From contig PDZV01000010.1 of NCBI GenBank assembly GCA_002753135.1, forward strand, positions 1 through 64,000: DNA of 64,000 bases, given 5' to 3'. The stretch is from Magnetococcales bacterium WMHbinv6 (GTDB lineage Bacteria > Pseudomonadota > Magnetococcia > Magnetococcales > Magnetaquicoccaceae). The position numbers and the translations under genes were made by a program. The first letter of the stretch is position 1, and every line of letters begins with the position of its first letter. Positions 10,156-46,408 of the stretch are shown here, piece after piece. The notes under the pieces were generated by a model that saw nothing but the letters and a program-made list of their open reading frames with translations, made no database searches and was not told the origin of the DNA.

Positions 10156-11823
10156 TTATGATGTCAAGGCAAGCCGGGCACGCTCCAGATAGGAGATGGC
10201 CTTCTGTGCGTCGCGATTGCGCGCCGAAATGGCCATCCGCAAGAGATTGCCGGAAAATTGTTCAAAATCTTCACTCGGATCGGAAAGAAAACGACCGGCT
10301 GCCTGGCGCAAGGGGGTAATCCAATGATCGACATCCGCCAAGCGATCACTCTGAATGGCCTGCTCACACAAAGCCAACAAGCGGTGACACTCGGCCAGCA
10401 GGCTGGTTTCACTTGGCAAAGCCTCACCACCCATCGTGCCCCCACCCTGGGTTTCTGTTTGCAACAGCGTTTTCCATGCAGGTTCCGAAGCCGTTGCCTC
10501 GCCCTCAATGGAGGCCGGATCATAAGGAAGCCAGACGGTAAAATAAAAAACAGACCCTTTGCCCTGCTCACTGCGAAAGCTCAACGCACCGCCCATCGCT
10601 TCCGCCAGCCGTTTGGCCAGGCTCAAACCCAATCCGGAACCGCCATATTTGCGCGTCCGGCTGCCATCACCCTGGGTAAAACTATCAAAAATCCACTCCT
10701 GCTGCTCGGCATCGATGCCAATACCGCTATCGCTCACCGCGAAAAGCAGGTTGATCCGCTCGGCATCCCGATGCTGTTGGCTGACCTCCAGGAGCAGCCC
10801 GCCCTGTTCGGTAAACTTGATCGCATTATCCAGCAACTTGGCCAAAATTTGGGCGATCCGCTCCCGATCCCCGATCAATTTGTCCGGCAACCCCTCTGCC
10901 ATCCGGCACAAAAAGGTCAATCCTTTGCTCCGGGCTGCCGCCAGCATCTCCTGCCCGGCCTGCTCCAACAAGCCGCGCAAGGAGAGCATATCCAGTTTGA
11001 CCGCCAGCTTGCCCTCCTCCAAACGGGAAAAGTCCAATAAACTGTTCAACAACAGCAATAATTTATCCGCCGCCGTGCGCGCAATGGTCAGCAGCTCCCG
11101 CTGCTGCTCAGTCAATTCCAACCCCAACACCAGATCGGTCATGCCGATGATGGCATTCATCGGGGTACGCACCTCATGGCTCATGTTGGCAATAAATTCC
11201 GTTTTTACCCGGTTGGCCACCTCCAACTGCCGGGTGCGCCGTTCCACCTCCTGCTCCAGATGATCGGTCAACAGACTCAACGCCTGTTTGGCTTGAATCA
11301 ACTCCCGGTTTTTGCGCACTGCATTTTCATAGGTGGACAACAACAAGTTGACCGTCTGACGTCGACTGGCCCAAATTTCATGCTGCTCACCGGCAAAGGC
11401 AATCGATAAGGGCGCGCATTTTTCCGCCTCCTCTGCCTCGGGCAACGGCTCTGCCAGCAAGAGCTGAATCCGCTCCAACAGATGGGCATCCTCCACCGGT
11501 TTGGTCAAATAGTTGTCCGCGCCCGCCTCCAACCCTCTGACCACCTCTTTCGGATCGTCCAGACCGGTCAACAACAAAACCGGAATTGCACACAACATCT
11601 CATCCTGCTTGATGGCCCGACACATGGCATAACCATCCATATTGGGCATGGCAATATCGGTGATGATCATCGCCGGCTGTTGTGTCTGGGCGGCAGACAA
11701 CCCTTCCAAACCATCCTTGGCCGTCAAAACCGTATAACCCGCCTCCTGCAACAGTCGCTGCAACATGACCCGTTGCACCGCGCTGTCCTCAACAATCAAG
11801 ATCGGCCCTGCTGCAGCTGCCAT
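10156..11823 (-). CDS. receiver-histidine kinase, output of the chemosensory operon
   Basis: The product has about 555 residues. An N-terminal receiver domain (about 8-125) keeps the acid pair (VEDS), the phosphoacceptor Asp in TDIAMPNMDG near residue 56, and the Lys in LTKP. A linker with the S-R-R-Q ... L-L-L-S-T-Y ... N-R-E-L pattern and a coiled coil leads to HisKA (NMSHEVRTPMNAIIG, His near 216). The HATPase domain has N, G1 (SDSGIGI) and G2 (GGSGLGLSLAKRL) boxes. It has no membrane segment or sensory domain, so input likely comes by phosphotransfer to the receiver, probably from the neighbouring CheA. GGGAG sits 6 bases before the ATG at 11823. A palindromic element separates it from cheB. 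Confidence 0.87.
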   Translation of the reverse strand: MAAAAGPILIVEDSAVQRVMLQRLLQEAGYTVLTAKDGLEGLSAAQTQQPAMIITDIAMPNMDGYAMCRAIKQDEMLCAIPVLLLTGLDDPKEVVRGLEAGADNYLTKPVEDAHLLERIQLLLAEPLPEAEEAEKCAPLSIAFAGEQHEIWASRRQTVNLLLSTYENAVRKNRELIQAKQALSLLTDHLEQEVERRTRQLEVANRVKTEFIANMSHEVRTPMNAIIGMTDLVLGLELTEQQRELLTIARTAADKLLLLLNSLLDFSRLEEGKLAVKLDMLSLRGLLEQAGQEMLAAARSKGLTFLCRMAEGLPDKLIGDRERIAQILAKLLDNAIKFTEQGGLLLEVSQQHRDAERINLLFAVSDSGIGIDAEQQEWIFDSFTQGDGSRTRKYGGSGLGLSLAKRLAEAMGGALSFRSEQGKGSVFYFTVWLPYDPASIEGEATASEPAWKTLLQTETQGGGTMGGEALPSETSLLAECHRLLALCEQAIQSDRLADVDHWITPLRQAAGRFLSDPSEDFEQFSGNLLRMAISARNRDAQKAISYLERARLALTS

Positions 11824-11859
11824 CATGCTCTCCCATCATCAAACCGGTAGCGTCAAAGA

Positions 11860-11994
11860 TTGTGAATAAATCTACTGCGCAGCCCGTTGGCGTCGTTGCG
11901 GGTTCGTTCGCTCCTCGCCTATCACATGGATATGTCTCGTCGCTCACTCACCCGCGCCTGGCCACCGGGCTTGCTCGTAACGATTTATTCACAA
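11860..11994. repeat. 135-bp hairpin element with 13-bp terminal inverted repeats (MITE-like)
   Basis: The ends TTGTGAATAAATC (11860-11872) and its exact complement (11982-11994) bound the element. Inside, the halves also pair imperfectly: AGCCCGTTGGC near the left matches AGCCCGGTGGC read from the right, with several more short matched blocks down to a central AT-rich loop. The whole thing can fold as one long hairpin. The right terminal repeat supplies the last codons and TAA stop of cheB. No ORF of its own is seen. It could be a non-autonomous transposable element or a mobile terminator-like repeat. Confidence 0.65.
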
Positions 11995-13052
11995 GCTCTC
12001 ACACCCGCCAATCGACACAACTCCCGCGCAATCGAGGAGACGGGCAACACTTTACCCACCCCTCCCAAATCAATGGCCTGCTTGGGCATGCCGAATACCA
12101 CACAGCTCTCCTCGTCCTGAGCGATTGTCACACCCTGGGCACGAGAAATGGCCAACAAACCATCGGCCCCATCCCGTCCCATACCGGTCAACAATACGCC
12201 GATCGCCTTGCCTTGATAGACCCGTGCGACCGAAAAAAAAGTGGCATCGACCGCTGGACGATGGGTATCGGTCGCCAAACCACCCTCCATGATAAAATTG
12301 CCGCGACTATCCAAGGTTAAATGTTTGTCTTCCGGCGGAAAATAGATGCCCCCGGCCATCGGTTTTTCCCCCTCCCGCGCCACCTGGACCGTCAACGGTG
12401 TATGCAGATTCAACCAACTGACCATCTCTTCCAGAAAACCCTGGCTGATATGCTGCACACATAAAATCGGCAAAGGAAATTTGGCCGGCAGGGCGGAAAA
12501 AATGGTCAACAAAGCCTGTGGCCCACCTGTGGAGGCACCAATCGCCACCAATGAGGGAACCGAAGGGGCCATCACCGGTGCTTTGACCAGCGGTTGCAGC
12601 GTACTTCCCTCCACCCCACTCGGCATCCGCGAACGATGGCGGCGAATCGGTACCACCCCGGATAAAATGCGTATCTTGGCCGCCAACTCCTGGGTCAACC
12701 CCTCACCGGCACTTTCCAAGCCGCCACGTGGCTTGGGAAAAACATCGACCGCTCCCGCCTCCAGCAGTTCAAAAATATTCTGGGTGTTGTGTTCCTGATG
12801 CACCGAAACACTGACCACCAGAATCGGCAACGGATGACGAATCATCACCTCCCGCGTCAACTGCAACCCATCCATTCTGGGCATGTGCAGATCGGTGCAG
12901 ACCACCTTTGGCTGCAAACGCGGAATCAACTCCAACGCCTCCTCACCATTGACCGCACTGCCCACCACCTCCATATCCGGTGCGGCATTGATCATCCGGG
13001 TCAAGACGGTGCGTGCCAGCGGTGAATCATCAACAATCAATACGCGAATCAC
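11985..13052 (-). CDS. cheB: chemotaxis response regulator methylesterase CheB
   Basis: The 355-residue product has a receiver domain at 1-120, with VDDS acids, Asp54 in CTDLHMPRMDG and Lys in FPKP. A linker and the CheB methylesterase domain (about 165-350) follow. The catalytic triad is visible: Ser174 in GASTGG, His201 in CVQHIS and Asp294 in GMGRDGADG. It removes methyl groups from, and deamidates, MCP glutamyl sites. It starts with GTG inside the last codons of cheA (GTGA overlap). The last residues ACE and the stop codon come from the end of a palindromic element, so the native tail may have been changed. Confidence 0.95.
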   Translation of the reverse strand: MIRVLIVDDSPLARTVLTRMINAAPDMEVVGSAVNGEEALELIPRLQPKVVCTDLHMPRMDGLQLTREVMIRHPLPILVVSVSVHQEHNTQNIFELLEAGAVDVFPKPRGGLESAGEGLTQELAAKIRILSGVVPIRRHRSRMPSGVEGSTLQPLVKAPVMAPSVPSLVAIGASTGGPQALLTIFSALPAKFPLPILCVQHISQGFLEEMVSWLNLHTPLTVQVAREGEKPMAGGIYFPPEDKHLTLDSRGNFIMEGGLATDTHRPAVDATFFSVARVYQGKAIGVLLTGMGRDGADGLLAISRAQGVTIAQDEESCVVFGMPKQAIDLGGVGKVLPVSSIARELCRLAGVRACE

Positions 13053-15775
13053 ACCAACCTCTGTAACGTTTCCAAAAATATTTTTTGTTCAAACGTGGGT
13101 TTGGTAATGTAGGCGTTGGCACCCACCTCCATCCCCCGTCGCATATCCTCATCCGATGAGAGCGAAGTCACTAAAATAACAGGTAAATCTTTGTACAACG
13201 GGTTTTGGCGAATCTGCTCCACCAAAGACAACCCGTCCAAATTGGGCATTTGCACATCCGAGACCACGGCATCAATCGGCTGTTTGCCCAATTTATTCAA
13301 CGCATCCAGACCATCCACCGCCGCAATCACCTCATAGCCGGCAGACTGCAGAATTCTCTTTTCCTGCGTGCGGGTGGTCAAGGAGTCCTCTGCCAATAAA
13401 ATTGTCTTTTTCCCTTGGGGCTTGGCGGCTGCAGCCTCCGTGCGTACCGGCAGGGCCGTCCGTGCCGCCGCTTCCGACCAACGGCGGCCATGTTTGCGGA
13501 CCGACTGCAACAAATCCCGTGGATTGACCACCATACAGACCCGACCGGAACCGAGAATGGTGGTTCCAGATAAATTGCGCACCCGCTGCAGTAAGCCACC
13601 AAACGGCTTCAAGACCACCTCCAGTTCATCCTCCAAGGCATCACAAATAATACCCAACCACCCTTCGCTGCCCAGATTGAATAAAATACAAGGCCAGGGT
13701 GGTGACGGTATGCGCTCTGGAGAGGCGGGCAACTCCAACAATTGCGCCAAACGGGCAACGGAAATCGGCTGCTCCTGGACGACGATCGTATCGCACCCTT
13801 CGATGGGAAAAATTTCTTCCGGCAGCAACCGCCGCACGCTGTGGACAAAATCCAAGGGGATGGCAAACTGTTGACCTGCCGCCGCCGCAATAAAAACCGC
13901 CGTCGTCGCCAGCGTCACCGGCAGCGAAATGGTGAAACAACTGCCTCGATTCGGCTCGGATTGCACAAAAATCCGTCCTTTGAGACGCTCCACCTGGGCC
14001 CGCACCACATCCATCCCCACCCCACGCCCCGAGACATCGGTAACAATTGTGCTGGTGGAAAAACCGGACTGAAAAATCAAACCATAAAGCTGCTCTTTGG
14101 AGTAGTTTGCCAACTGATCTTCCGCCACCAGACCCCGCTTGCGTGCCTGTCGCTTGATCGCTTCCACATCCAAACCCCGCCCATCATCCCGCACCTCCAA
14201 CACCACATGCGTCGCCGTCTGCGCGGCGCGCAAGGTAATGGTACCCTGACGTGGCTTGCCGGCACGTTGCCGCTGTGCCGCCTCCTCCAAACCATGATCA
14301 ATCGCATTGCGGATCAAATGCATCAGCGGGCTTTTCATCTCCTCCAGAATGCGTTTATCCGCCGTGGTCTCGCCCCCTTCGGTGATCAGTTGTACCTCTT
14401 TCGCCTGCTGACGGGCCAAATCCCGCACCATGCGGGGAAACAGACCAAACAGGGTCGATAAGGGCAACAGCCGCAAATTGCGAATGCCCTCTTCCAGCGA
14501 TTCGGCCACCAGTTCCAGACCGGCTTCATCTTCGGCAATACCCTGGCGCAGCAACAACAAACGGTTGCCGATCTGCTCGCCAAACTGATCACTATAGCGC
14601 GCCAGCAAGGGAGCCCCTGCCGTGGCACCGCGCTCCCGACTGCTCCCGTCATGCCGGGCCTGCTCCTCCCATAAGGCCAGCAGCTCTTCAATTTCTGTCA
14701 ACCGCCGCTTGACCCGGGTACGCACGACCGTCAACTCGCCCACCAGACGCAGCAGCGCGTCCAATTTGTTGGAACGAACCCGAATGACCGGTGCAGTCTC
14801 TTCGTTGCCACTCAACGGATCTTGCGTTTCTGCTGCCGTGGTTTCCGGGTGGCTGTCGCCACCGCCGACAGTGAACCCGCTGGCAGGTGCTGTCGCCTCT
14901 TGCCAAGCGCCACTTGCCGAAGTGGCGGCGCTGGCTGGCGCAGCAGCTTGCCCCTGTGCTGCCAAAAAGCCCTTCTCACCTCTCCCTGCGCCCTCTGGTT
15001 GGTCAGGCGTTGGCATCCTCTCGGCAGGCACCGGCAGCTGTGGGCTGCTTGCCTCGCCTGCCGGATGCGACAGCGAAGGGGACAGCGTGGCAACACTGGT
15101 CGGTGGCGGCAAAGGAGCGGCGGTCACCGGTGGAACAGAGGCGGGCACTGTCACAACCGGCAGGGTGGTCGCAGCAGGACTCTTCAGCTCACTGTACGGC
15201 GGCAGGTTGGCCGCAGCGGGCTTTGCCGTGGTCAATGGGCTGCTCACCGCCACCGTCGGCATGGTCGTCACCAGCGGCGCGACGCCTTCGGCTACCTGCG
15301 GACGTGCCGTTGCCGCTGCCGCCACAGGTGCCACCGGCATACCCGGCACCGCCGCCTGCGCCGGTCTGCTCGCCGGTTGATTCAAACGGCGCAACGCCTC
15401 CGGCAAACTCACCGGGGAGGGTTTGCCAGTGACCGCCTCTTCCACCAAAGCCCGCATATCATCCAGACTGCGGGTCAGGCGATCCACATCCATGGCCATA
15501 AAGGTCCGTTGTCCTTTGGAGGCGGCACCCAGAAAATCTTCAAAATGGTGCGCCAGGGTCTCCACATCCCGCACCCCCAACATGCGCGCCGCACCCTTCA
15601 AACTGTGCGCTTCACGAAACAGCTCTTTGAGGGTGGCCAAATCGTCGGGCCGCTTCTCCAAATGGAGCAAACCCGCCTCCAGTTGATGCAGATGTTCCTC
15701 ACTCTCGGCGGCAAACAGCTCCCGCAACTCCTGATCTTCGATCATGGAACCGCCGCCAGCACCATCCCCACTCAT
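13049..15775 (-). CDS. cheA: CheA-type histidine kinase with C-terminal receiver (WspE-like)
   Basis: The 908-residue product opens with an HPt/P1 domain (HSLKGAARMLG, His57). A long Ala/Pro/Thr/Val-rich linker (about 125-320) takes the place of a clear P2. The dimerisation helices follow, then the ATPase domain (LIRNAIDHGLEEA N box, DDGRGLD, SGRGVGMDVV). Next are a CheW-like P5 domain and a complete receiver (about 785-905: LLAEDS, Asp in SDVQMPNLDG, Lys in ITKP). CheA-receiver fusions are usual in Wsp-, Pil- and Frz-type systems rather than flagellar ones. GGGAG lies 7 bases before the chosen ATG. It overlaps cheB by 4 bases. Confidence 0.93.
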   Translation of the reverse strand: MSGDGAGGGSMIEDQELRELFAAESEEHLHQLEAGLLHLEKRPDDLATLKELFREAHSLKGAARMLGVRDVETLAHHFEDFLGAASKGQRTFMAMDVDRLTRSLDDMRALVEEAVTGKPSPVSLPEALRRLNQPASRPAQAAVPGMPVAPVAAAATARPQVAEGVAPLVTTMPTVAVSSPLTTAKPAAANLPPYSELKSPAATTLPVVTVPASVPPVTAAPLPPPTSVATLSPSLSHPAGEASSPQLPVPAERMPTPDQPEGAGRGEKGFLAAQGQAAAPASAATSASGAWQEATAPASGFTVGGGDSHPETTAAETQDPLSGNEETAPVIRVRSNKLDALLRLVGELTVVRTRVKRRLTEIEELLALWEEQARHDGSSRERGATAGAPLLARYSDQFGEQIGNRLLLLRQGIAEDEAGLELVAESLEEGIRNLRLLPLSTLFGLFPRMVRDLARQQAKEVQLITEGGETTADKRILEEMKSPLMHLIRNAIDHGLEEAAQRQRAGKPRQGTITLRAAQTATHVVLEVRDDGRGLDVEAIKRQARKRGLVAEDQLANYSKEQLYGLIFQSGFSTSTIVTDVSGRGVGMDVVRAQVERLKGRIFVQSEPNRGSCFTISLPVTLATTAVFIAAAAGQQFAIPLDFVHSVRRLLPEEIFPIEGCDTIVVQEQPISVARLAQLLELPASPERIPSPPWPCILFNLGSEGWLGIICDALEDELEVVLKPFGGLLQRVRNLSGTTILGSGRVCMVVNPRDLLQSVRKHGRRWSEAAARTALPVRTEAAAAKPQGKKTILLAEDSLTTRTQEKRILQSAGYEVIAAVDGLDALNKLGKQPIDAVVSDVQMPNLDGLSLVEQIRQNPLYKDLPVILVTSLSSDEDMRRGMEVGANAYITKPTFEQKIFLETLQRLV

Positions 15776-15787
15776 TCCTCAACTCCC

Positions 15788-17260
15788 TCAGAGCATCTTC
15801 TTGAGAGATTGGGCCGCATCATTCAACGTTTGCACCCCACCCTTGACCTGCACCATACCCGCTGCCGACTCCCGTGCCCCCATGTTGATCGCTTGAACGG
15901 CCTCGGTCACCTGACGAATGGCCACCGCCTGCTGGCGCACATTCAAGGCAATCTGCTGCGCTCCCTGTACGGTTCCTTCCACGGCATGGGCCACACCACG
16001 AAAAGTTTCTGCCGTGTTGTGCGTGCTGACCATCCCCCCCTCGACAGCACGATCTCCCTCTGCCGTTGCCGCAACCGTACCGTCGGTGGCCCGTTGAATC
16101 TCATTGATCAAACTCTGAATGCGGCTGGCCGACTGTTTGCTTTCATCCGCCAGTTTACGGGTTTCGACCGCCAACACCGCAAATCCTTTGCCATGGGCCC
16201 CGGCACGCACCGCCTCCACGGCGGCATTGACCGCCAACATGCGCGTTTCGTTGGCAAAATCAGTAACCATCTCCGTGATGGTGCGAATTTCTCCGGTCTG
16301 TTCACTGAGCAAACGACTGCGCCGGGCAATTTCATCCACCGTTTCCTGCGCCAAGACCATGCTTTGCAAGGTCTCCTCCACCCGCTGCAACCCTTGCTGG
16401 GCCAACTCCATCGCCTGTTGCGCCCCGTTGACCGCCCGTGCCGCCTGTTCCGCCGATTGCCGCGAAGAGGTATCCAGCTCTTCCATGGTGGTTGTCGTCT
16501 CATTCAGTGACGTGGCCTGCTGGCTGGCAATCCGCTCTTGTTGGTTGATGCTGGCCGCCATCTGACTGGTGGCCGAAGAGAGCATGTTGACCACATTCTG
16601 CAAGGGCAACTGCACCACCCGGCTTAACCACATGCTCAACACCACACACAACAGCAACACTGTGATCGCCAACCAGATGGTTTGATCCCGCGTACTCTGG
16701 GCTTCCACCATGAACCGCTGGGCCCTTTGACTGGCAAAGGTGGCAATTTCGTTGATTGTCTGATCCAGGCGGCGCACCAGCTGTTCATCATCCGGTACCA
16801 TGCTGGAAAAACGCCGCAGTTTGTCTGGATCGCCCGCCCGCTTCAACTCGACCAGTTTTTCCCGCACCCGTATCCACTCTGCCAGCGTTTGCTGGGCAAT
16901 CACCAACTTTTGTTTGTCGCCCAAAAAACGTTCGTCAATGATTTTCAGGTCTTGCAACACCTCGGCATGGCGAGCGTCCAAATTTTGCAACAGCTTTTCC
17001 AGCTCGGAAATCGAGCGCAACAAATCCACCTGCTCCAGCAATATGTGCATATGGGTGACATGATCGGCAATGCGCAAGGCGGCCGTGTTGACCTGAAACG
17101 GATGGTTGTACAATCGTTCCGTCAAAGAGGCCAACTGCATCATCTGCACAATTCCGAAGGCACCAAGAAGAACCATCAAGACCACCAAAACCCGCATCCC
17201 GGTGACCAGGCGCATTTTGACATCAAAAAATTTTGTCGATACCGACCATGGTTTGACCAT
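15788..17260 (-). CDS. methyl-accepting chemotaxis protein A (no large sensor domain)
   Basis: This 490-residue protein has two membrane helices, at about 20-40 (VLVVLMVLLGAFGIVQMM) and 170-192 (IWLAITVLLLCVVLSMWL). They enclose a helical periplasmic domain of about 130 residues that looks like a four-helix bundle. A cytoplasmic coiled coil carries the hairpin tip (FANETRMLAVNAAVEAVRAG, then HGKGFAVLAVETRKLADES). The tip differs from the usual NLLALNAAIEAARAGE of MCPs but matches the neighbouring MCP. GAGGG lies 7 bases before the ATG at 17260, with the upstream MCP stop 11 bases away, so the two are co-expressed. Confidence 0.9.
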   Translation of the reverse strand: MVKPWSVSTKFFDVKMRLVTGMRVLVVLMVLLGAFGIVQMMQLASLTERLYNHPFQVNTAALRIADHVTHMHILLEQVDLLRSISELEKLLQNLDARHAEVLQDLKIIDERFLGDKQKLVIAQQTLAEWIRVREKLVELKRAGDPDKLRRFSSMVPDDEQLVRRLDQTINEIATFASQRAQRFMVEAQSTRDQTIWLAITVLLLCVVLSMWLSRVVQLPLQNVVNMLSSATSQMAASINQQERIASQQATSLNETTTTMEELDTSSRQSAEQAARAVNGAQQAMELAQQGLQRVEETLQSMVLAQETVDEIARRSRLLSEQTGEIRTITEMVTDFANETRMLAVNAAVEAVRAGAHGKGFAVLAVETRKLADESKQSASRIQSLINEIQRATDGTVAATAEGDRAVEGGMVSTHNTAETFRGVAHAVEGTVQGAQQIALNVRQQAVAIRQVTEAVQAINMGARESAAGMVQVKGGVQTLNDAAQSLKKML

Positions 17261-17270
17261 CTGTGTTCCC

Positions 17271-19109
17271 TCACACCATTTTCTGCAAGGTTTGCGCCGC
17301 TTCATTCAGGGTGCGAATCCCCTCTTTGACCTGGGCCATACCGGCCAGACTCTCCCTCGCCCCGGAATTGACCGACTTCATCGCCTCCACCACCTGCCGG
17401 ATGGCAACCGATTGCTGGCGTACATTCAAGGAAATCTGCTGTGCCCCTTGCGATGCCGCCCCCATCGCTTGCGCCACCTCCCGGAAGGTTTCTGCCGTAT
17501 TCTGCGAAATGACCATCCCTTCATCCACCACCTTGCTGCCCTCTTCCGTGGCCATCACCGTACTGTTGTTGGCCTTTTGCACCTCGGAAACCAGACCGTT
17601 GATCCGGCCTGCCGAACGTTTGCTCTCATCGGCCAGCTTGCGGGTTTCCATCGCCAACACGGCAAACCCTTTACCGTGTTCACCGGCCCGGACCGCTTCC
17701 ACCGCCGCATTCATGGCCAGCATTTTCGTTTCGTTGGCAAAATCAGAGACCAAATTGGCAATATCCCGAATTTGTCCCGTTTTTTCACTCAGCAACAAGA
17801 TCTGTTGGGCAATTGCCTCGACCTTGTTTTTGGCCTTCTCCATGCTGGTCAGGGTATCTTCCACCCGACTCATGCCGAACTGCGATAACTCCAGCGCCTT
17901 GTCGGCACTGTTGGCCGCCACTTCCGCCTGTTCTGCCGATTGGCGTGCCGAGGCACCCAACTCTTCCATGGTGGTGTTGGTCTCGTTGACCGAAGTGGCC
18001 TGCTGTGAGGCAACCCGCTCCTGTTCGGTGACCGTGGCCGCTATCTCTGTCGAAGAGGCAGAGATGACTTGAATCACCTCCATCAGCGGCAGGCTGATCG
18101 AACGGGCAACCAACCAACCGACTGCGGCAACCACCAAGGCACAAACCACAGCCACCCCCAGAATGGTCAGATTCAGGGTATCAACCGCCGCAAACGCCTC
18201 TTCTTCGTTGATCACGCTGACGATTGCCCACTGCAAACCCGGTATCGATAGTGGTCCATAACTGGACAAAACCGGCACCCCTCCTGCCCCGGCACGCAGC
18301 GCGGTTCCCGTACTGCCCGCAATGGCCTTTTCAATAAAATTATCCGTTTTTACCTGACCAATTTTCCCCTGCACGGTCACCCGGTCACTGCGATAGCTGG
18401 TGGTATCACAGGATTTGCCGACCAGATAACTTTCACCCGATTTGCCCATGCCAACACGGGACTGAATGATGGCATCAATCTCCTCGACGGAGAGTTGCAA
18501 GGCGACAACGCCCAACAACTCTCCTTCCCGTTTAATCGGCGCACCTACAAAAGCGGTCTGCGCCCCTTTGGATGGGGCATAGGCAGAATAATCCTCCAGA
18601 ACACCCCCCCCTTTGGCCTTGCCAAACAGACGGGCCAAACCACTCCCCTGCAACGAACCACGCAGCAGATCTTCGCCCAGGTCCGATTCGCGTGCTACGG
18701 AAAAAACAACCCGCCCCTCGCTGTCGATCAACAGCAAATCATGGTAACTATATTGTTTTTTAAACTGCTCCAAAAAATGGGTAAGCGGTGTCTGCACGCT
18801 ACTGCTCCACTCGGAGGTACCGATTCGACGACCACTTTTTTGGTATTCCTGCCAGATACGCCGCGACATTTTCAACGTTTCGGCAGCAGCAACCGTCTCT
18901 GCGACAACCATTGCATCATTCAAGCGGGCCAGAAAAAATTTTTCTACCTGCTTGCCGTGCGACTCCCGCACCGCATCCAACATGGCATACGACTTGGCAC
19001 GCAAGGCATCCCCCGCCTGCTGGTTGAGTAATATGCTGACCACCAGCAACGGCAAGAGACCAAACAGCAAAAACAGACTGATCAGCTTGACCGATAATCG
19101 CATCTTCAT
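17271..19109 (-). CDS. methyl-accepting chemotaxis protein B with dCache-type sensor
   Basis: The product has about 612 residues. A first membrane helix lies at about 7-27 (ISLFLLFGLLPLLVVSIL). A periplasmic region of about 300 residues with double-Cache features follows (HDLLLIDSEGRVVFSVARESDLG, FVGAPIKREGELLGVVALQL, SYLVGKSC, GLQWAIVSVINEEEAF). The second membrane helix is near 330-350, then the methylation helices and a signalling tip nearly identical to MCP A (FANETKMLAMNAAVEAVRAG). The ligand is unknown; dCache domains often bind amino or organic acids. The ATG at 19109 has AAGGA 9 bases upstream; an in-frame TTG at 19118 is less likely. Confidence 0.9.
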   Translation of the reverse strand: MKMRLSVKLISLFLLFGLLPLLVVSILLNQQAGDALRAKSYAMLDAVRESHGKQVEKFFLARLNDAMVVAETVAAAETLKMSRRIWQEYQKSGRRIGTSEWSSSVQTPLTHFLEQFKKQYSYHDLLLIDSEGRVVFSVARESDLGEDLLRGSLQGSGLARLFGKAKGGGVLEDYSAYAPSKGAQTAFVGAPIKREGELLGVVALQLSVEEIDAIIQSRVGMGKSGESYLVGKSCDTTSYRSDRVTVQGKIGQVKTDNFIEKAIAGSTGTALRAGAGGVPVLSSYGPLSIPGLQWAIVSVINEEEAFAAVDTLNLTILGVAVVCALVVAAVGWLVARSISLPLMEVIQVISASSTEIAATVTEQERVASQQATSVNETNTTMEELGASARQSAEQAEVAANSADKALELSQFGMSRVEDTLTSMEKAKNKVEAIAQQILLLSEKTGQIRDIANLVSDFANETKMLAMNAAVEAVRAGEHGKGFAVLAMETRKLADESKRSAGRINGLVSEVQKANNSTVMATEEGSKVVDEGMVISQNTAETFREVAQAMGAASQGAQQISLNVRQQSVAIRQVVEAMKSVNSGARESLAGMAQVKEGIRTLNEAAQTLQKMV

Positions 19110-19133
19110 TGTCTTCAATCCTTGCCTTTCGGA

Positions 19134-20243
19134 TTATACCTCTTCATTCACCAGCAGCGCCGGATCGGCCAACATGGCCTGAATGTTCAAAATACCTAAC
19201 ATTTGCTTGTTGTAGGGTACCGAACCCTGCAAATGTTCCCCACGAAACGCACTGGTTGCCACCGGTGTGGCAGCCAACTCGCCACTGCGCACATGAATCA
19301 CATCGACCACATCATGCACCATCACCCCGACTTCGTGGCTACCGAGTGTCACCACCACCGCCTTTTCCATGCTCTGTCCGATGTCCGAGACCGGTATATC
19401 CAAAACCTGACATAAATCGACCAGAATCAACACCTCACCACGCAAATTCATGCTGCCGACAATATGGGGTGGACAACAGGGTACCGGGGTAATTTTGTTG
19501 ACCTTGGCAAAACCGGCCACCCCTTTGAGTTCCACTGCCAACATTTCACCCTGCAGGCGAATGATGGCCAGAGAAATCTGTTCTTCCAGCTCCTGCTGTT
19601 CCAGACGCTGCCGCAACCGTTGCGCACGGGTACGGAAAATGGTCTGTGCCGACTCCCCCCCTTCTGCCAGCAAACGGTGACGCAGTGGCGGGGTGAGTTC
19701 ACTCTCCCCTTCCCGTTCCCCGCCCCCTTCCGGCAACCACTCCGCCGGATGGATGTGCAGCAGGTGATCGACCGTCAACAACATCACCAATTCATCGCCA
19801 ACCCGTGCCACACCCCGGACAAAACGGTAACGACGCTGCTGCAGCTCACTCTCCCCCCCTTCCATGGCTTCAAAACGGGGGGTTGCATCCCAATCATGCT
19901 GGCTCAGGGTAACAATTTCCCGTACCTCATTGACCAGCAACCCCAACAACTCACCCTTTTGTTCCAACACCACCACCGAATCGGTCAACAGGTACTGTTC
20001 ACGCAAGGGCCGTCCCAAACGGCTGCCCAGATCCAACACCGGCACCACCCGACCACGCAGATTGATGACCCCCATCACAAACAAAGGGGCATCCTCCAGT
20101 ACGGTGATCTCCGGCATCCGTATCACCTCCTGAACCCGCTGGGCGTCGACACCGTACAGGCTTTCTGACAAACCGACGATTAAATATTCTTCGCCAGTCT
20201 CCTGTGTATTGTCCGTCATTTGTTCTTGCATCGCTGATTGCAT
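19134..20243 (-). CDS. double-CheW coupling protein
   Basis: The 369-residue protein contains two CheW domains. The first, at about 15-165, has [22 protein letters not shown] and [15 protein letters not shown]. The second, at about 220-360, has [20 protein letters not shown] and [16 protein letters not shown] charged coiled segment ([17 protein letters not shown]) joins them. Single CheW proteins couple MCPs to CheA; Wsp systems use two separate CheWs (WspB, WspD), which here appear as one chain. The start at 20243 is chosen because AAGG lies 8 bases upstream; two further in-frame ATGs follow within 25 bases. It is the first gene of the chemosensory operon. The 281 bp up to the divergent crcB must hold its promoter; none was recognised. 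Confidence 0.87.
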
Positions 20244-20524
20244 CCGATCTGCCTTACAGGTATTTTCTTCCGAATGGTGCGGGACATTGTGGGCGTTTTG
20301 CCACATTTTTACAAACAGTTTTTTCATTTCAGATGGGTAAAATCAGCTCAAAAGCTGCGGATCCATCCATCCCACGCCAGGCGGGTTGCACCACCGAGCA
20401 GCGACGACCGGTCACACCGGCTCCCCGGCAACAGCGCGTTACAACTTGTCATGGCCACGCAAGGGGGGTACCCTGCAGCAATGCTTTGGCAAAAAACAGA
20501 ATTTCCCTCAGCAACAAGGTGATT

Positions 20525-21409: not shown

Positions 21410-22951
21410 TTAGCCACCGCCCAAAATGCGTTCCAGTTGTTCGACCAGCTCTTTGACTGTCCACTCCTCATAATGCTCCAGACGCTCTGCCAGCGGCAGA
21501 CCGTGCAACACGTCCAACGCCCCAAGACGCATCTGGCGGGCCCGTTCTGTGCTGCCCTCTTCCTGATACAACTCAGCCAAATGCAAATAAGCAGGAACAT
21601 GGTTGCGATCCAGATAGAGCGCTTTTTTCAATAACGCCTTGGTCTGTTCCGCATCACCCCGATCATGGACCAGATTGGCCAGGACAAAATGGGGTTCGGC
21701 AGCAAAAGGACGCTGGCGTAACGCCTCCCGACAATGGACATCTGCTTTTCTGGTATCGCCCAGATTGGCATGGGCCTTGGCCAGCAACAGATTGGCTTCA
21801 CCCGCCACAGAGCCTACCTGCAGCAGCTCTTCGGCACAGCGAATCGACTCGCCATACTGCCCCTTGTCAAACAGTAACCGTGCTTCCTGTAAACGTTTTT
21901 CCGGAATCGCTTGCGCAGCCTTGGCCGGGGAGACCGTAACACGCAGGGTATTGCTCACGCCAGCAGAACGCATGGCTGGCGAAGCTCTCTCTTCTTTCGC
22001 TGCTAAAACCGTTGCCTTGCGCTGCGGCACGACTGGGGTTGCCATGGTTGGCATCATGCCGCCGGATTTCAACAAAGCCGCAGAAGACCGCGCTTCGCTC
22101 TCAACCGGACGTTGAAAAATAACCGAGTCGGGAAATTGCCGGGCCTGCAAAGGCAGCGCACCGGAGGCCACCAACTGCGATACCGGTTGTTGCACCTCCG
22201 CATGTCCGGTTAAAACATAACCGCCCGGACGCAAACATTCGGCAAAGCGGGCCATGATTTCGGCAATGGCATCATGACCGAAATAGATGAACACGTTGCG
22301 GCAAACAATCAAATCCAAATCATAGAGCCCACGGGAAGGATCCGGATATTTTTCCTTGATCAAATTCAACCGTTCGTACTGCACCATACCCCGGATCGTC
22401 GCCTCCACCTGCCAATCACTCTGATTGCGCATAAAGTTGCGCTCAACCATGTCGCCGCTGACACCGCGAAATGCCCAACGGCTGTAACGCCCCTCCCGCG
22501 CTTTTTGCAACGCATATTCGTTGATATCCGTTCCCTTGATCAGCGTCTGCCATGACTCGGTGCCCGGCAACAACGACTGCAAAATAATCGCCAGCGAATA
22601 GGGTTCCTCCCCCGTGGAACAGCCTGCACTCCAGACACGCAACAGCCTTTCTTTGGCACGTTGACGCAGCAAATCTGGAAATATTTCTTCCCGCAACAAG
22701 CGCATCTGCCCGGCATCACGGAAAAAATAACTCTCTCCAGTCGTCAACTCCAGAACCAGGGCACGCCACTCCGCCTCCGTGGCCGGACCATCCGCCGTCA
22801 ACAACGCCAAATACAAATCTTCCGCCCCCATGCGCGTCGCATGCACACGCCGGGTCAGTTTTTCCCGCAAATAGGGTCGATCATGGTCGGGAACCAGCAG
22901 GCCGGTATAGCTCTGAATGATCCGGCAAAACTGCTCTAAAACGTTATCCAT
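21410..22951 (-). CDS. cheR: CheR methyltransferase with C-terminal TPRs (WspC-like)
   Basis: The 513-residue product has an N-terminal all-helical CheR domain (about 1-75: FCRIIQSYTGLLVPDH). The SAM-binding methyltransferase domain follows (about 80-275), with TGESYFFRD, the glycine-rich WSAGCSTGEEPYSLA, and CRNVFIYF. After a Ser/Ala-rich linker, three to four TPR units occupy about 355-490 (LLFDKGQYGESIRCAEELL, LLAKAHANLGDTRKADVHC, HFVLANLVHDRGDAEQT). TPR-tailed CheRs belong to Wsp-type and other alternative systems and methylate MCP glutamates. It is the last gene of a seven-gene signalling run, 5 bases after a receiver gene, and faces the other chemosensory operon. Confidence 0.92.
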   Translation of the reverse strand: MDNVLEQFCRIIQSYTGLLVPDHDRPYLREKLTRRVHATRMGAEDLYLALLTADGPATEAEWRALVLELTTGESYFFRDAGQMRLLREEIFPDLLRQRAKERLLRVWSAGCSTGEEPYSLAIILQSLLPGTESWQTLIKGTDINEYALQKAREGRYSRWAFRGVSGDMVERNFMRNQSDWQVEATIRGMVQYERLNLIKEKYPDPSRGLYDLDLIVCRNVFIYFGHDAIAEIMARFAECLRPGGYVLTGHAEVQQPVSQLVASGALPLQARQFPDSVIFQRPVESEARSSAALLKSGGMMPTMATPVVPQRKATVLAAKEERASPAMRSAGVSNTLRVTVSPAKAAQAIPEKRLQEARLLFDKGQYGESIRCAEELLQVGSVAGEANLLLAKAHANLGDTRKADVHCREALRQRPFAAEPHFVLANLVHDRGDAEQTKALLKKALYLDRNHVPAYLHLAELYQEEGSTERARQMRLGALDVLHGLPLAERLEHYEEWTVKELVEQLERILGGG

Positions 22952-22956
22952 GCGCT

Positions 22957-23370
22957 TTATACCGGCAATTCACTTAATGTCCAGTACAGGTTGATTGTGC
23001 GAATCACCTCGACAAACTGCACATAATCGACTGGTTTTACCATATAGCCCGCCACACCCAGATCAAAACTGCGTGCCCGATCCAGCTCATCCTTGGAAGT
23101 GGTCAAAATGACCACCGGAATGGTACGTAAACGGTCTTCTTTTTTGATGGCATTCAAAAATTCAATACCGTTCATGCGCGGCATGTTCAGATCCAGTAAA
23201 ATGATGCACGGCAGATCATTGTTGCCATCGCGCAGCCATGCCAACCCCTCTTCGCCATTGCCCATCACCGCCAACGGGTTGTTGACATGAATGGCCTTCA
23301 AGGCCCGTTTTACCGTCATGGCATCGACACGATCATCTTCAACCAAAAGAATGGTTTTCATCCCCTTCAT
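22957..23370 (-). CDS. single-domain response regulator (Rcp1-like)
   Basis: The product has 137 residues, almost entirely a receiver domain: ILLVEDDRVDAMTVKRAL at the start, Asp in ILLDLNMPRMNGIEFL, Thr/Ser in VVILTTSKDELD and Lys in YMVKPVDY. The pattern with DRVDAMTVKRAL and W-L-R-D-G is that of Rcp1-type regulators, which pair with phytochrome-like kinases. No output domain is present. GGGAG stands 6 bases before the ATG. It lies 29 bases after a matching kinase gene and 5 bases before cheR. Confidence 0.9.
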   Translation of the reverse strand: MKGMKTILLVEDDRVDAMTVKRALKAIHVNNPLAVMGNGEEGLAWLRDGNNDLPCIILLDLNMPRMNGIEFLNAIKKEDRLRTIPVVILTTSKDELDRARSFDLGVAGYMVKPVDYVQFVEVIRTINLYWTLSELPV

Positions 23371-23399: not shown

Positions 23400-24164
23400 T
23401 TACGCTGCCGCATCCTCTTCCAACGGACGTTTGGGTAAAGTAAATTCAAACAAAGTACCAACCGGCGGATCAACACCCGGTGGTGGCGAATAGACGCAAA
23501 TTTCCCCGCCATGCAGTTCGACAATTTTTTTGACCAGAGTTAAGCCAATACCGGTACTGCCGTAGGCATCGCCCGCATGCAAGGTCTGGAAAATCTGGAA
23601 AATACGTTCATGATCCTTGGCGGGAATGCCCGGGCCATTATCCCCTATCCCGAATCGATACTGCCCCTCTTCCTCAACGCAGGTAACACGAATATGGCCT
23701 TGCGCTTTGTCCATGAATTTGATGGCGTTGGAAAGCAGATTTTGAAACGCCTGCCCCATCCGCACCCCTTCACACATCACCACGGGCAAACGGTTTTCCA
23801 GATGTATGGTAATATGGGCGGGAGGTGCCAGTAAATCAATCACCTGGCTGACCATTTTGTGCAAATTGACCGGAATCCACTCTTCCCGGATACGGCCAAT
23901 GCGCGAATAGTGCAACACCCCCTCGATCAGTTGATCCATCCGGCGCACCCGTCCCTGCAACAGATCCAACTGCTCTCGACCATCCTCATCAAACAACGGG
24001 CCGTAATCTTCGGCAATCCATTGCACCAGGGAGTGAATGGCCCGCAACGGTGCCTTCAGATCGTGGGAAATAATATAGGCAAACTGTTGCAACTCCTGAT
24101 TGGTCCGTTCCAGTTCGCGAATCAGACGTTCCCGTTCGTTGTCATTCTCTGTTGCGTTGTCCAT
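23400..24164 (-). CDS. soluble histidine kinase
   Basis: The product has about 254 residues. A short N-terminal coiled coil (ERERLIRELERTNQELQQF) leads directly into HisKA (YIISHDLKAPLRAI). The HATPase domain has N box QNLLSNAIKFM, GDNGPGI, and TGIGLTLVKKIVELHGG. No sensory domain is present, so it resembles the transmitter half of bacteriophytochromes and may act on the adjacent Rcp1-like regulator. The ATG at 24164 has GGGG 7 bases upstream. In-frame ATGs at 24194 and 24209 would add up to 15 residues. The upstream pseudo-CheB hybrid has a closely related kinase domain, so one may have arisen by duplication. Confidence 0.87.
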   Translation of the reverse strand: MDNATENDNERERLIRELERTNQELQQFAYIISHDLKAPLRAIHSLVQWIAEDYGPLFDEDGREQLDLLQGRVRRMDQLIEGVLHYSRIGRIREEWIPVNLHKMVSQVIDLLAPPAHITIHLENRLPVVMCEGVRMGQAFQNLLSNAIKFMDKAQGHIRVTCVEEEGQYRFGIGDNGPGIPAKDHERIFQIFQTLHAGDAYGSTGIGLTLVKKIVELHGGEICVYSPPPGVDPPVGTLFEFTLPKRPLEEDAAA

Positions 24165-24215
24165 TCCGTTGCCCCATTGCCCAGGTTCACGCATGCAACC
24201 GTGCAGCATCCACCG

Positions 24216-26789
24216 TCACGGTGCTTTCGGTAAGGTAAAATGAAACGTGCTGCCGACACCCACTGTGGATTCCACCCATACCCGACCGGCAAATTGACCG
24301 ACAATTTTACGGACCAATGCCAATCCCATGCCGGAGGTCTCCTGATTATCCCGTGCCTGCAACGTCTGAAACACCCCGAAAATTTTTTCAAAATGGATCT
24401 CTTCAATACCAGGTCCGTTGTCACTGACCTGAAAATGCCACCAACTGCCGCTGCCCGGCACCACTCCCTCGCCGCCAGCGGCAACGCCATCGGCGGTGCT
24501 GGCCTCGCCGACACAGGCGATGCGAACGATCCCTAACCGTTTATCCATAAAATGGATGGCATTTTTCAACAGACTGTGAAAAATCTGCTCGGCACGTCGT
24601 GGGTCAAAACGAATCATCACCGGCAGGGAGGGCTCCAGGGCAATTTCCATCTCTTCGGATGGATTCAACCCCTTGATCACCCGGGTCAGCAAACGGGTCA
24701 GGTCCACATCCTGCAACTCTTCATGCAAACGACTGACCCGGACATACTCCATCAACGAATCGATCAAACCGTTCAAACGGTCGGCACGCCCCTGTAACAA
24801 ACGCACCAACTCCTGCCCCTCTTCACCCAGTCGTTCGGCAAAATCGGCAATCAGCCAACTGGTCAGCGAGCCAATGGCCCGAAACGGTGCCTTGAGATCG
24901 TGCGAAATAATATAGGCAAAATCATTCAACTCCCGATTGGCCACCGCCAGCGCCCGCAGCGTCTCCGTCTGGGAGGCTTCAACCCGGCGTCGTTCGTTGA
25001 TCTCCGCTTGCAGATTTTGGTTGATCATCTCCAGTCGGGCCGCCTGATCGACCAGGCGGGAGTTGAGCATTTTCAGCTCCAGATGGTTATCCATCAACTC
25101 CCGATTCTGCTTGACCGCTTTCTGGTAGGTCATCAGCAATAAATCCAACACCTGCCGACGACTGGAAGTGATGGTATAACTCTTCTCAGCAAAAGAGATT
25201 TCTATACTTCCCTCCAGTGACTCTGCCATGTTGCTGACCTGCAGAACCCGCTGCAGTGACTCCAACAAAGGGGCCCCTTCCCACGGTTTGGTCAAATAAT
25301 TGTCTGCACCGGCTGATAATCCTTCCAAAATTTCTTCCGGATTGGTCAAGGCGGTCAGCAGGATAACCGGAATCGTTTTGAGGCGGGGATCCTGCTTGAT
25401 CTGCCGACACATGGTAAAACCATCCATGCGCGGCATCGACACATCGCTGATGATCAGACGTGGCAACAGTTGACCCGCTTGCGCCAACCCCTCTTGCCCA
25501 TCCTTGGCCACCCGCACCATAAAACCGGATTCCAACAAAAATTTTTTTAATTTATAGGCCTGTGTCGGCGAATCTTCAACGATCAGTATCCCCTCTCCGG
25601 CTTGCCACTCGCCGGCGGCAGGCGCTACGGCAGCACTGTTGCCCGACGCTGACTGTGTCTCTGTTGCAGCGCCAAAGGCAGAGGCCTCCTCGGCATGGCC
25701 ACAACGGCTTTCCCCTTCGCTGCGACCCAACAAGGTCTGCAGCGAACGGGCAATGACACTGCAGGGCAATAAATTGCGTACCGCGCCCAACTCCAACAGT
25801 CGCGCTGGCAGATCAAAAACCAACGCCGACGACTCATCCATCGCCACCGTATAACCGCCCGCCTGATAGATGGCCTCCAACCCCCTGGCCCCATCCTCGC
25901 CGGTGCCACTGAGCAACACCCCGATCACCAGCGCCCCCAAATGGCTGGCCACCGACTCCATCGCCACCAAAATAGAGGGCAATTCACCATGCTGGCCATA
26001 ATGCGCCGGCAATATCCCCGAAGAGATCGACAAGGTTGCCAGCCGCCCATGGGCATCGATCAACAAATGGTGACCAACCGGAGCCAAATAGATCGATCCC
26101 GGCATCGGCATTTCACCATGGGTCGCCATCTGCACCGGCATCCGTGTCACCTCTGCCAACCAACGGGGCAAAGCCGCCTGCAATACCGGATGCACATGCA
26201 CCACACACAACATCGGCACCGGAAAATCGACCGGCATGGCGGCCAAAATTTCCCGCAGGGCACTGATTCCCCCCAAACCAACCCCCATCACCACCATGTT
26301 GACCGCTGGCAAGGCTTGCAACGGCGTGGTGCTGTTGGAACTGTCGCAGGTAAAATCCGGCAAAGAGTCCAAACGGGCCAAAAGTCGTATCTTGCTGGTC
26401 AACTCCCGCGAAAAAGAGCCCACATCTTCACTGCGCCAACCCAGCGGTTCCAAAAAAAGATCCAGCGCACCCGCCTCGAACATACGAAAGATGATCGACG
26501 CATCCCCCTCCCGTAACGAAGCGGCCCCCACCACCAGAACCGAGCGGGGATAACGCTCCATCAACGACCGGACAAAGAGCGCTCCTTCCACATCCTGCAA
26601 ATGCAAACCGACACAGACCACATGGGGATCGGTCTCTGCCACCAGCGCCAACGCTTCCTGACTTCCACGCACACTGCCGACCACCTGGATTACCGTTACC
26701 AGAGACAAGGCCCGCTTCAACAAAGCCAACGTCAAAGCCGAGGCATCCGCCAACAACACCCGGATCGGATTGGGCTCGTTTTCCCTCAT
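24216..26789 (-). CDS. pseudo-CheB/receiver/histidine kinase hybrid
   Basis: The 857-residue chain has a CheB-like layout fused to a receiver and a kinase. The first receiver (about 8-125) is degenerate: the phosphoacceptor position reads VCVGLHLQDVEG (Gly61 for Asp), the acid pair is LADA, and the conserved Lys is Glu114 (FLEP). The CheB methylesterase domain (about 165-350) has GVGLGG where CheB has GASTGG, so the catalytic Ser is Gly171. His198 and Asp299 remain. An intact receiver follows (about 400-515, VEDS, Asp449, LTKP). Then come a linker with the S-R-R-Q ... N-R-E-L pattern, HisKA (IISHDLKAPFRAI, His630) and HATPase. A start at 26789 fits GAGGA about 11 bases upstream. It probably senses through protein contacts rather than catalysis. 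Confidence 0.88.
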   Translation of the reverse strand: MRENEPNPIRVLLADASALTLALLKRALSLVTVIQVVGSVRGSQEALALVAETDPHVVCVGLHLQDVEGALFVRSLMERYPRSVLVVGAASLREGDASIIFRMFEAGALDLFLEPLGWRSEDVGSFSRELTSKIRLLARLDSLPDFTCDSSNSTTPLQALPAVNMVVMGVGLGGISALREILAAMPVDFPVPMLCVVHVHPVLQAALPRWLAEVTRMPVQMATHGEMPMPGSIYLAPVGHHLLIDAHGRLATLSISSGILPAHYGQHGELPSILVAMESVASHLGALVIGVLLSGTGEDGARGLEAIYQAGGYTVAMDESSALVFDLPARLLELGAVRNLLPCSVIARSLQTLLGRSEGESRCGHAEEASAFGAATETQSASGNSAAVAPAAGEWQAGEGILIVEDSPTQAYKLKKFLLESGFMVRVAKDGQEGLAQAGQLLPRLIISDVSMPRMDGFTMCRQIKQDPRLKTIPVILLTALTNPEEILEGLSAGADNYLTKPWEGAPLLESLQRVLQVSNMAESLEGSIEISFAEKSYTITSSRRQVLDLLLMTYQKAVKQNRELMDNHLELKMLNSRLVDQAARLEMINQNLQAEINERRRVEASQTETLRALAVANRELNDFAYIISHDLKAPFRAIGSLTSWLIADFAERLGEEGQELVRLLQGRADRLNGLIDSLMEYVRVSRLHEELQDVDLTRLLTRVIKGLNPSEEMEIALEPSLPVMIRFDPRRAEQIFHSLLKNAIHFMDKRLGIVRIACVGEASTADGVAAGGEGVVPGSGSWWHFQVSDNGPGIEEIHFEKIFGVFQTLQARDNQETSGMGLALVRKIVGQFAGRVWVESTVGVGSTFHFTLPKAP

Positions 26790-27243: not shown

Positions 27244-29238
27244 CTATTCAACAGCCTGTTGTGCTTTGCTATCCGTATTCAACACCTTCTCTATCACCGT
27301 GCGCAATTGCTCGACCCGACTCTGCACCCCCGTCACATCACCCCGCCGCGCCGCCAGGACCACATGAAAGGCTTTACTGCGCAGTTCACTTTCCGTCGAA
27401 CTCTCCCGGATACGACCACCGTGCTGGGCAACCATCGATAAATCACCCTCAGTGACTGCTTTTTCCATCTCCTGCCACAGGTTGAACAGGCTCTCTCTCT
27501 CTTCCAGCAACGGAGGATCACCCTCTTCACCGGACGCGGACGACTGCTCTGCGGCTTGCGGTGCCGCTTGGACGATGGGCTGCATGCTGCGCTCCAGTGC
27601 CAGCTGCACATCAAAACGGCTCCCCTTGCCCGGCGCACTCTGTACCCCGATATGACCGCCCATCAGCTCAACCAACCGTTTGACAATCGCCAACCCCAAC
27701 CCGGTACCACCGCTTTTGCGTGTGGAACTTCCATCCACCTGGGTGAAGGCATCAAAGATTCTTTCATGCCATTCGCTGGCGATGCCAATACCGGTATCAA
27801 TCACCGACAAGGTCATGAGCAGACGTTTGCCTTGCCAATCCCCCTCACTGCCGGGCGCACTCTCTCCATCCCGGTTGCCATGGGGCACCACCTCTATGGT
27901 CACACTGCCTCGTTCGGTGAATTTGACGGCGTTGATCACCAGTTGATGCACAATCTGCCGCAACTGTACCGGATCGCCCATGAGATGGGTGACCATCTGC
28001 GCATCGATCCGCCAATGCAAACGCAAACCCTTTTCCCGCGCTTTGGGCAAGATTCGATCCACCACCTCCATCAGCAACTGCCGCAAATCAAACGGGACCC
28101 GCGCCAAAGCCAGACGATTGGTCTCAATTCGGGCAAAATCAATAATCCCGTTGAGCAGACTGAGCAGGGAGTGGGAGGAGTCCTGAACAATTTTCAAAAA
28201 CATCTGCCGTTCCTCGGCATCACCACTCTGGCGGGCCAAATCGGTCATGCCGATAATGGCGTTCATCGGGGTGCGCAACTCGTGGCTGATGTTGGCCAAA
28301 AATTCACTCTTGGCCCGGCTGGCCGCTTCGGCACGCTCTTTGGCTTCGTATAACGCCTCTTCCATCCGTTTGCGTTCGATGACGCCCGCCAAGGTATCGG
28401 CAATCGCCACCAGAAAGGCCGCCACTTCGCTGCTGAACAGCTCCTCGGACGGCACCTGAAACAACCAGATGCCAAATATTTTATCTCCTGATAAAATGGG
28501 CGTTTGATAAAGGCTGGCCAACCCCTCCTGCCGCTCAAAACGGACGCCGGCCTGTGCCAGACGCTGTACGGCTGGCAGACCTGCTTGTACCTGCTGGCGG
28601 AAAAATTGAATCTGACGCTGCAATAACGGTTGATCCAACTCCAGGCAGGAACCGGATAACAGATCCGACTCCGGGGCACCATCGGTCAAAAAGATGCACC
28701 CTCTGGCACTGTTGGAGAGCCAGGGAATGGCCATGACATGGCCGAGAATTTGTTCCAGTTGTGCTTTCAGTGGCAGATTTTGCAAAGAGACGCGCAAAAC
28801 GGCGTTGATGGTCGACTGCAAATCCTGGTTGCGGCGCATCCGTTGTTCAGCCGAGCGATGATTCAGCGCTTGCTGTACCACAACCGGTAACAGATTGAGA
28901 TAGTTGCGTTCCCGATCTTTGAGCAGATAATCATAGGCACCGGCCTTCATGGCCTGAATGGCAACCCCTTCATCACCACCACCGGTGACGACAATCACCG
29001 GAATACCTTGTTGTACATACTCGAACAGATCCAGCGCCACCCCGTCCCCCAAACGGTAATCGGTGACCACCACATCAAACGACTCGCGCGCCAGGCTCTC
29101 CCGCGCCTGTTGCAGAGAGTCGGCCATGGTCGCCTGGTAGGACAACTGCTCTTTTTTCAATAGCCGCTTGAGGGCCATTTGATCGACCGGGTCGTCTTCA
29201 ACCACCAATAATCGGCACGTTGGATTTGCCATCGTCAT
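27244..29238 (-). CDS. receiver-GAF-like-histidine kinase
   Basis: The product has about 664 residues. A receiver domain at 5-125 has VVEDDPVDQMALKRLL, Asp in VVTDYRLGDG and Lys in LLKDRE (variant). A middle region of about 170 residues is GAF-like (IPWLSNSARGCIFLTDG ... DKIFGIWLFQVPSEELFSSE). HisKA (NISHELRTPMNAIIG), HATPase (DTGIGI, GGTGLGLAIVKRLVELMGG) and a C-terminal helical tail of about 110 residues follow. It is cytoplasmic. The start is not certain: ATGs at 29238 and 29232 both lie near a weak GAGATGG. It is followed at 15 bases by a free receiver. A 120-base gap separates it from the upstream hemerythrin fusion. Confidence 0.87.
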   Translation of the reverse strand: MTMANPTCRLLVVEDDPVDQMALKRLLKKEQLSYQATMADSLQQARESLARESFDVVVTDYRLGDGVALDLFEYVQQGIPVIVVTGGGDEGVAIQAMKAGAYDYLLKDRERNYLNLLPVVVQQALNHRSAEQRMRRNQDLQSTINAVLRVSLQNLPLKAQLEQILGHVMAIPWLSNSARGCIFLTDGAPESDLLSGSCLELDQPLLQRQIQFFRQQVQAGLPAVQRLAQAGVRFERQEGLASLYQTPILSGDKIFGIWLFQVPSEELFSSEVAAFLVAIADTLAGVIERKRMEEALYEAKERAEAASRAKSEFLANISHELRTPMNAIIGMTDLARQSGDAEERQMFLKIVQDSSHSLLSLLNGIIDFARIETNRLALARVPFDLRQLLMEVVDRILPKAREKGLRLHWRIDAQMVTHLMGDPVQLRQIVHQLVINAVKFTERGSVTIEVVPHGNRDGESAPGSEGDWQGKRLLMTLSVIDTGIGIASEWHERIFDAFTQVDGSSTRKSGGTGLGLAIVKRLVELMGGHIGVQSAPGKGSRFDVQLALERSMQPIVQAAPQAAEQSSASGEEGDPPLLEERESLFNLWQEMEKAVTEGDLSMVAQHGGRIRESSTESELRSKAFHVVLAARRGDVTGVQSRVEQLRTVIEKVLNTDSKAQQAVE

Positions 29239-29358
29239 CCATCTCACGTTTTGTGGATTGGTTCGTCCGTCAATCTGTTGTCCGATTATTGCCAATCGCC
29301 AAGGTAAATACAATATCCGCCCAAACAGACAAATGATTTTTCCATGCGCTGAGCAAAT

Positions 29359-46407: not shown

Positions 46408-46408
46408 T

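Follow-up and report, generated by a model that had tools for sequence, protein, structure and literature searches.

What does a CheB methylesterase do once its residues indicate that both of its activities are gone and it has become the front half of a histidine kinase? The question is raised by a minus-strand gene at 24216..26789 of the window, the whole 64,000-nucleotide stretch of DNA that was analysed. Translation, Pfam and orthologs identify the product as a pseudo-CheB hybrid kinase of 857 aa with the order REC1-CheB-REC2-coiled coil-HisKA-HATPase. The frame is open through all 857 aa, begins with ATG preceded by AGAGGA and is separated from the adjoining gene on each side by six to seven bases. 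The plus-strand reading of 24216-26789 contains many stops and was rejected.

The chain opens with a pseudo-receiver, REC1 (residues 8-125, 26415..26768), and the CheB domain (residues 161-350, 25740..26309). Pfam and orthologs place behind these an intact receiver, REC2 (residues 399-515, 25245..25595), the HisKA domain with its phospho-His in ISHDLKAP (residues 616-690, 24720..24944) and HATPase_c (residues 725-857, 24219..24617), all on the minus strand. The Pfam matches themselves are CheB_methylest at 166-349 (146.6 bits), two Response_reg, with REC2 at 401-512, HisKA at 621-685 and HATPase_c at 729-856. Pfam found no PAS domain, HWE kinase or CheR domain in the chain, the kinase being of the HisKA type. 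A complete receiver, a phospho-His and N and G boxes mark the protein as a hybrid histidine kinase. The NCBIfam CheB models span residues 8/9-354 at scores under their curated cut-offs (260 vs 342; 235 vs 293), as expected of a diverged member.

Residues were mapped by alignment to solved CheB (1a2o, 6ymz) and to E. coli CheB, whose numbering is used for the reference. D56, the phosphoacceptor, corresponds to Gly61 (codon 26607..26609, minus strand), the catalytic S164 to Gly171 (codon 26277..26279, minus strand), H190 to His198 and D286 to Asp299. An earlier note on this DNA had assigned these two losses and two retentions within a preserved CheB architecture, and the alignments, the Pfam CheB_methylest match and the NCBIfam span bear out both the assignments and the architecture. 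The loss in REC1 is more complete than that note stated, because D11 of the acidic pair has become Ala16 and K107 has become Glu114. REC1 thus lacks all three residues of a phosphorylatable receiver (D11, D56, K107), and the Ser-His-Asp triad of an active CheB is broken at Ser, with His and Asp present. The CheB_methylest domain and CheB fold still stand behind the receiver, and REC2 and the kinase have all their phospho-acceptors and ATP-binding motifs. Judged by sequence, the CheB half has lost both CheB activities while its fold is otherwise conserved; the residues concerned are absent genus-wide, in line with the double loss first proposed.

Structure prediction points the same way. An AlphaFold2 model of residues 1-365, built on a shallow alignment (pLDDT 69), has as its best PDB matches six full-length CheB chains (6ymz, 1a2o) at TM ~0.70, which suggests that the CheB half would fold as CheB. 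The 857-aa model (pLDDT 67, pTM 0.41), used for domain layout only, has a single helix at 544-685 linking REC2 to the kinase. Both models are of moderate confidence, and pocket geometry is not to be read from them.

The unusual residues are a stable property of the gene. It occurs in all 6 other genomes of the genus at 71-87% identity, and Gly61 and Gly171 are found in 7/7 species; the closest named relative, Candidatus Magnetaquicoccus inordinatus UR-1, shares ~90% identity over the CheB half. The window comes from a genome of Magnetococcales, a magnetotactic order. The Ser change, which the earlier note had allowed might be peculiar to one strain, is common to these 7/7 species and to 13/14 members of the wider family. 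Simple Nei-Gojobori estimates between genus members show purifying selection, with dN/dS of 0.167 in the dead CheB domain vs 0.151 in the live CheB of its gene cluster, values so close that the dead domain is constrained nearly like the live one. REC1 stands at 0.177 vs 0.105 for the corresponding part of live CheB. The strongest constraint within the fusion falls on REC2 (0.105) and HisKA (0.104), and the linker at 356-398 alone is lax (0.55).

The distribution of the family and its tree give the order of events. Searched with a profile of the REC1-CheB half, 13/48 Magnetococcales genomes hold members (at least 433 bits), and one more, G013, has its gene broken between two contigs and brings the number to 14. 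The next CheBs in Magnetococcales reach at most 369 bits; most of them are the live CheB encoded in the fusion's own cluster. No member was found among about 350 other Pseudomonadota (398 genomes searched in all), where the best score was 333 bits, and a DNA-pattern scan of the GTDB collection gave four matching records, all Magnetococcales. In a maximum-likelihood tree the family forms one clade (100/100), as do the members without Ser (99/97; 100/98 with long branches left out). The sister to the remaining members, G026, keeps Ser, D11 and D56. Loss of Ser in all such CheB-receiver-HisKA chains, raised as a question at the outset, is therefore true of 13/14 members and not of G026; the Ser position holds Gly in 11 members, Thr in G023 and Asp in G019. 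D11 is absent from all 13 Ser-less members, in which the D56 position is occupied by Asp (3), Asn (3) or, in the genus, Gly (7). These states on the tree show that the fusion came first, that Ser and D11 were lost on one branch, and that D56 was lost later in part of the family.

Beyond the family the catalytic Ser is not lost: 67/67 sampled outside CheB domains keep it, and among 80 distinct CheB domains 68 have Ser, while each of the other 12 belongs to the family. Of the 32 columns that never vary among live CheBs, the Ser-less members retain nine completely; His190 is present in 12/13 of these members and Asp286 in 12/12. CheBs in long open reading frames elsewhere were considered as further fusions and rejected; nearly all carry CheB as the last part of the frame, the exception being a 1400-aa frame in G034 with CheB near its start, and all keep Ser.

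The fusion lies in a chemosensory cluster whose genes keep the same order in other families of Magnetococcales. On the minus strand, the gene run that holds the fusion is headed by an MBL-cNMP-hemerythrin protein of 874 aa (29359-31983), which could conceivably feed an oxygen or redox signal into the system. A REC-HisKA-HATPase hybrid kinase that is a conserved neighbour (27244..29313) and the single-domain response regulator REC_26797 (26797..27228) stand upstream of the fusion, both identified by Pfam. After the fusion come HK_23400, a soluble histidine kinase without sensor domain (23400..24209), and REC_22957, a single-domain response regulator (22957..23370), both by Pfam and ortholog search, and then a CheR methyltransferase with TPR repeats (21410..22951). 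A CrcB-type gene on the opposite strand (20528-20905, plus) separates the two halves of the cluster. The second half, again on the minus strand, comprises a CheW-CheW tandem coupling protein (19134..20327), an MCP with a weak dCache_1 match under the curated cut-off (17271..19118) and an MCP with a four-helix-bundle sensor (15788..17305), all by Pfam, followed by CheA with a C-terminal receiver (Hpt, dimerisation, HATPase, CheW, REC; 13049..15775). It ends with the live CheB (11985..13052), in which DD, D56, GASTGG, H and D are all present by alignment, and directly after it a REC-HisKA-HATPase kinase (10156..11826), which corresponds, unfused, to the C-terminal part of the fusion. Elsewhere in the window, 35295-38863 (plus) and 44041-46740 (minus) are notable for an ABC protein of type I secretion that bears a C39-like domain, an HlyD-type protein and, close by, a protein of 900 aa containing an F5/8 type C domain.

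CheR-TPR and multidomain regulators mark ACF-type pathways (PMC3447774), and the cluster possesses both. As in Wsp-type ACF pathways, REC-kinases with several domains serve as outputs beside CheR-TPR (PMC3447774); unlike them, the cluster has no GGDEF output and has kinases and single receivers instead. The fusion shares 37% identity with the live CheB and 39% with the REC-HK of the adjacent pair, and its kinase domain is nearest to HK_23400 (46-47% identity). It would have arisen by duplication and joining of such a pair: an ancestor among the Magnetococcales would have gained second copies of a CheB gene and its adjoining REC-kinase gene, and these would have fused. The CheB half afterwards lost its phospho-switch and catalytic Ser along a single branch, and would have persisted since then as a folded module without catalytic function. 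In a related cluster of G020, CheA-REC is directly followed by two CheB genes in tandem, each of which has its Ser (L093, G020:C101; contig positions 25655-26728 and 26775-27824). No fusion was found in that cluster, and the tandem indicates that CheB was duplicated in the cluster on another occasion.

Two partner genes follow the fused kinase exactly. Among the 48 Magnetococcales genomes, orthologs of REC_22957 (71-96% identity, at least 217 bits, the next match at 99) occur in precisely the 13 genomes with a kinase-bearing fusion. Those of HK_23400 (at least 261 bits, the next at 208) occur in the same 13 and not in G034; the ortholog in G026 carries an extra receiver. G034 (99% complete, on a 749-kb contig) has a fusion that stops after REC2, at 583 aa, with CheR beginning within ~40 bases of it, and its cluster lacks HK_23400, REC_22957, REC_26797 and REC-HK. 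Gain and loss of the fused kinase, HK_23400 and REC_22957 together supports a single pathway, an argument weakened by the adjacency of the genes, which allows joint loss with no direct interaction. A heterodimer of HK_23400 with the fusion (46% identity to the kinase half) would explain regulation of HK_23400.

The closest known system is Che3 of Rhodospirillum centenum (PMC3868531). There phosphate passes from CheA3 to the intact receiver of CheS3, which lowers CheS3 signalling to the stand-alone CheY3, and CheS3 has two N-terminal receivers, one with Ala for Asp (PMC3868531). The two systems share an ACF-type cluster, CheA-REC, a second kinase encoded alongside it with one live and one Asp-less receiver, and a stand-alone receiver. 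CheS3 has PAS domains, an HWE-type kinase and no CheB, whereas the fusion has a HisKA-type kinase and no PAS; a whole dead CheB replaces one receiver, and of the two receivers it is the second that is intact in the fusion, but the first in CheS3. Compared with CheB itself, the protein-glutamate methylesterase/glutaminase, the fusion keeps the REC-linker-esterase order, the CheB fold and ~36% full-length identity to the live CheB of the cluster, and it differs in lacking the phosphoacceptor Asp, the second acidic residue and the catalytic Ser and in being joined to a REC-HK. Two CheB-CheR fusions of the same genome (L008, L010) likewise carry a CheB domain inside a large signalling protein, but in these CheR follows CheB, no receiver stands in front and Ser is kept. 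Versions of CheB-CheR fusions with C-terminal PAS or kinase parts exist. In L010 (contig C50, 619-2337, minus strand) the nucleophile motif reads VIGGSSESL, in which Ser is kept and the following GG is lost.

We propose, as a reading with an even chance of being right, that the dead CheB brings a CheS3-like REC-kinase to the receptor/CheA array as a docking module, under control of REC2 and with REC_22957 as output. Since its catalytic parts were lost and it was nevertheless long kept as the front half of a kinase, the CheB half is probably a plug to the receptor array and not an enzyme, whereas ordinary CheB acts in chemotaxis by resetting receptors. It would dock the fusion at the array of MCP, CheW and CheA-REC, possibly helped by contacts to CheA or CheW. 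CheA~P, or a neighbouring kinase, would phosphorylate the intact REC2, which may turn the attached HisKA/HATPase kinase up or down via the long connecting helix. The fused kinase, alone or with HK_23400, would then set the phosphorylation of REC_22957. The overall logic would be that of CheA3-CheS3-CheY3 with a dead CheB as adaptor.

Loss of Ser need not cost binding: in enteric bacteria, the S164A variant of CheB attaches to the body of the receptor no less well than CheB with its Ser (PMC8609364). The docking module that the earlier note envisaged is compatible with this result. Against docking stands the weak affinity of CheB for the receptor body, with a KD for receptor without the pentapeptide of ~200 uM when activated and 590-850 uM when not (PMC8609364). 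No C-terminal pentapeptide tether is evident on the two MCPs of the cluster. Unphosphorylated CheB is mostly closed, and an unphosphorylatable REC1 might hold the module shut. The truncated protein of G034 sets a further bound. Since G034 keeps dead CheB-REC2 with no kinase, neither docking a kinase nor passing a signal to the fused kinase, as the earlier note had it, can be the sole role of the dead CheB.

That same genome, in which dead CheB-REC2 is kept alongside CheA, CheB, CheR and MCP and the kinase branch is gone, could be explained if the dead CheB acts as a competitor or buffer. It would sit on the methylation regions of receptors, or on docking sites of CheA, and so limit live CheB, the kinase being a passenger or a second output. 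The live CheB is retained in the same cluster in nearly all fusion-bearing genomes, and the undiminished receptor binding of S164A CheB (PMC8609364) suits this role too. A pure competitor, however, does not need the kinase domain and two partner genes that are kept in 13/14 genomes, and the strongest constraint within the protein is on HisKA and REC2. We regard it as unlikely, if worth bearing in mind.

Retention of the triad His and Asp through deep divergence, with Ser lost, raises another alternative, in which the emptied pocket selectively binds methylated or amidated receptor sites and signals their occupancy to the fused kinase. The S164A enzyme still binds receptor, but CheB shows no significant preference between all-Gln (4Q) and all-Glu (4E) receptor (PMC8609364), so the recognition of methylation state suggested by the earlier note is unsupported. 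Array docking is favoured over such a reader because S164A still binds, with no 4Q/4E preference and weakly when tetherless. Other positions conserved in live CheBs are changed in the fusion (Thr165, Thr281, Met283, Gly313, Met314), and G034 has the module with no kinase to receive the signal. We consider a reader quite improbable.

With receiver and esterase residues both gone, the CheB half might merely space or dimerise the kinase, making no receptor contact. Such a scaffold would have no need of the His/Asp pair, which is kept in 12/13 and 12/12 members, and would not have to be encoded within a full chemosensory cluster that includes CheR and CheB; this reading is very unlikely. The retained His and Asp could alternatively support an altered enzyme, working with water or with Ser294, a residue that is Ser in 12/13 members, counting Cys in G034. 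Ser294 aligns with Thr281, the usual residue of most CheBs; Ser also occurs there in CheBs with an intact catalytic Ser, so it is a normal variant and no clear replacement nucleophile. The His/Asp pair appears dispensable, since G019 has lost His as well as Ser, and of the few family-specific columns examined none points to a new active site; continued catalysis is extremely improbable. A decaying gene or sequencing error is refuted, because both changes are common to 7 assemblies of different species of the genus, dN/dS is 0.17, near that of live CheB, and the frame is intact.

The gene is a real, conserved, order-restricted pseudo-enzyme fusion, and from these comparisons we infer its function. 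ACF hybrid kinases with a dead receiver are already known; the apparently new part is the whole dead CheB. Searches of an open-access library, in which most subscription papers are absent, found no description of a Ser-less CheB or of a CheB-REC-kinase, so the novelty is provisional. In this family a core chemotaxis protein has taken a pseudo-enzyme form, and its history can be read from the members: a sister with catalytic residues, a branch on which they were lost and a later drop of the kinase. That history lets one ask how an adaptation enzyme is turned into an adaptor, and whether receptor methylation may itself serve directly as an output. If the dead CheB does read methylation state, the activity of the fused kinase would be set by receptor modification and would be an output of receptor memory itself.
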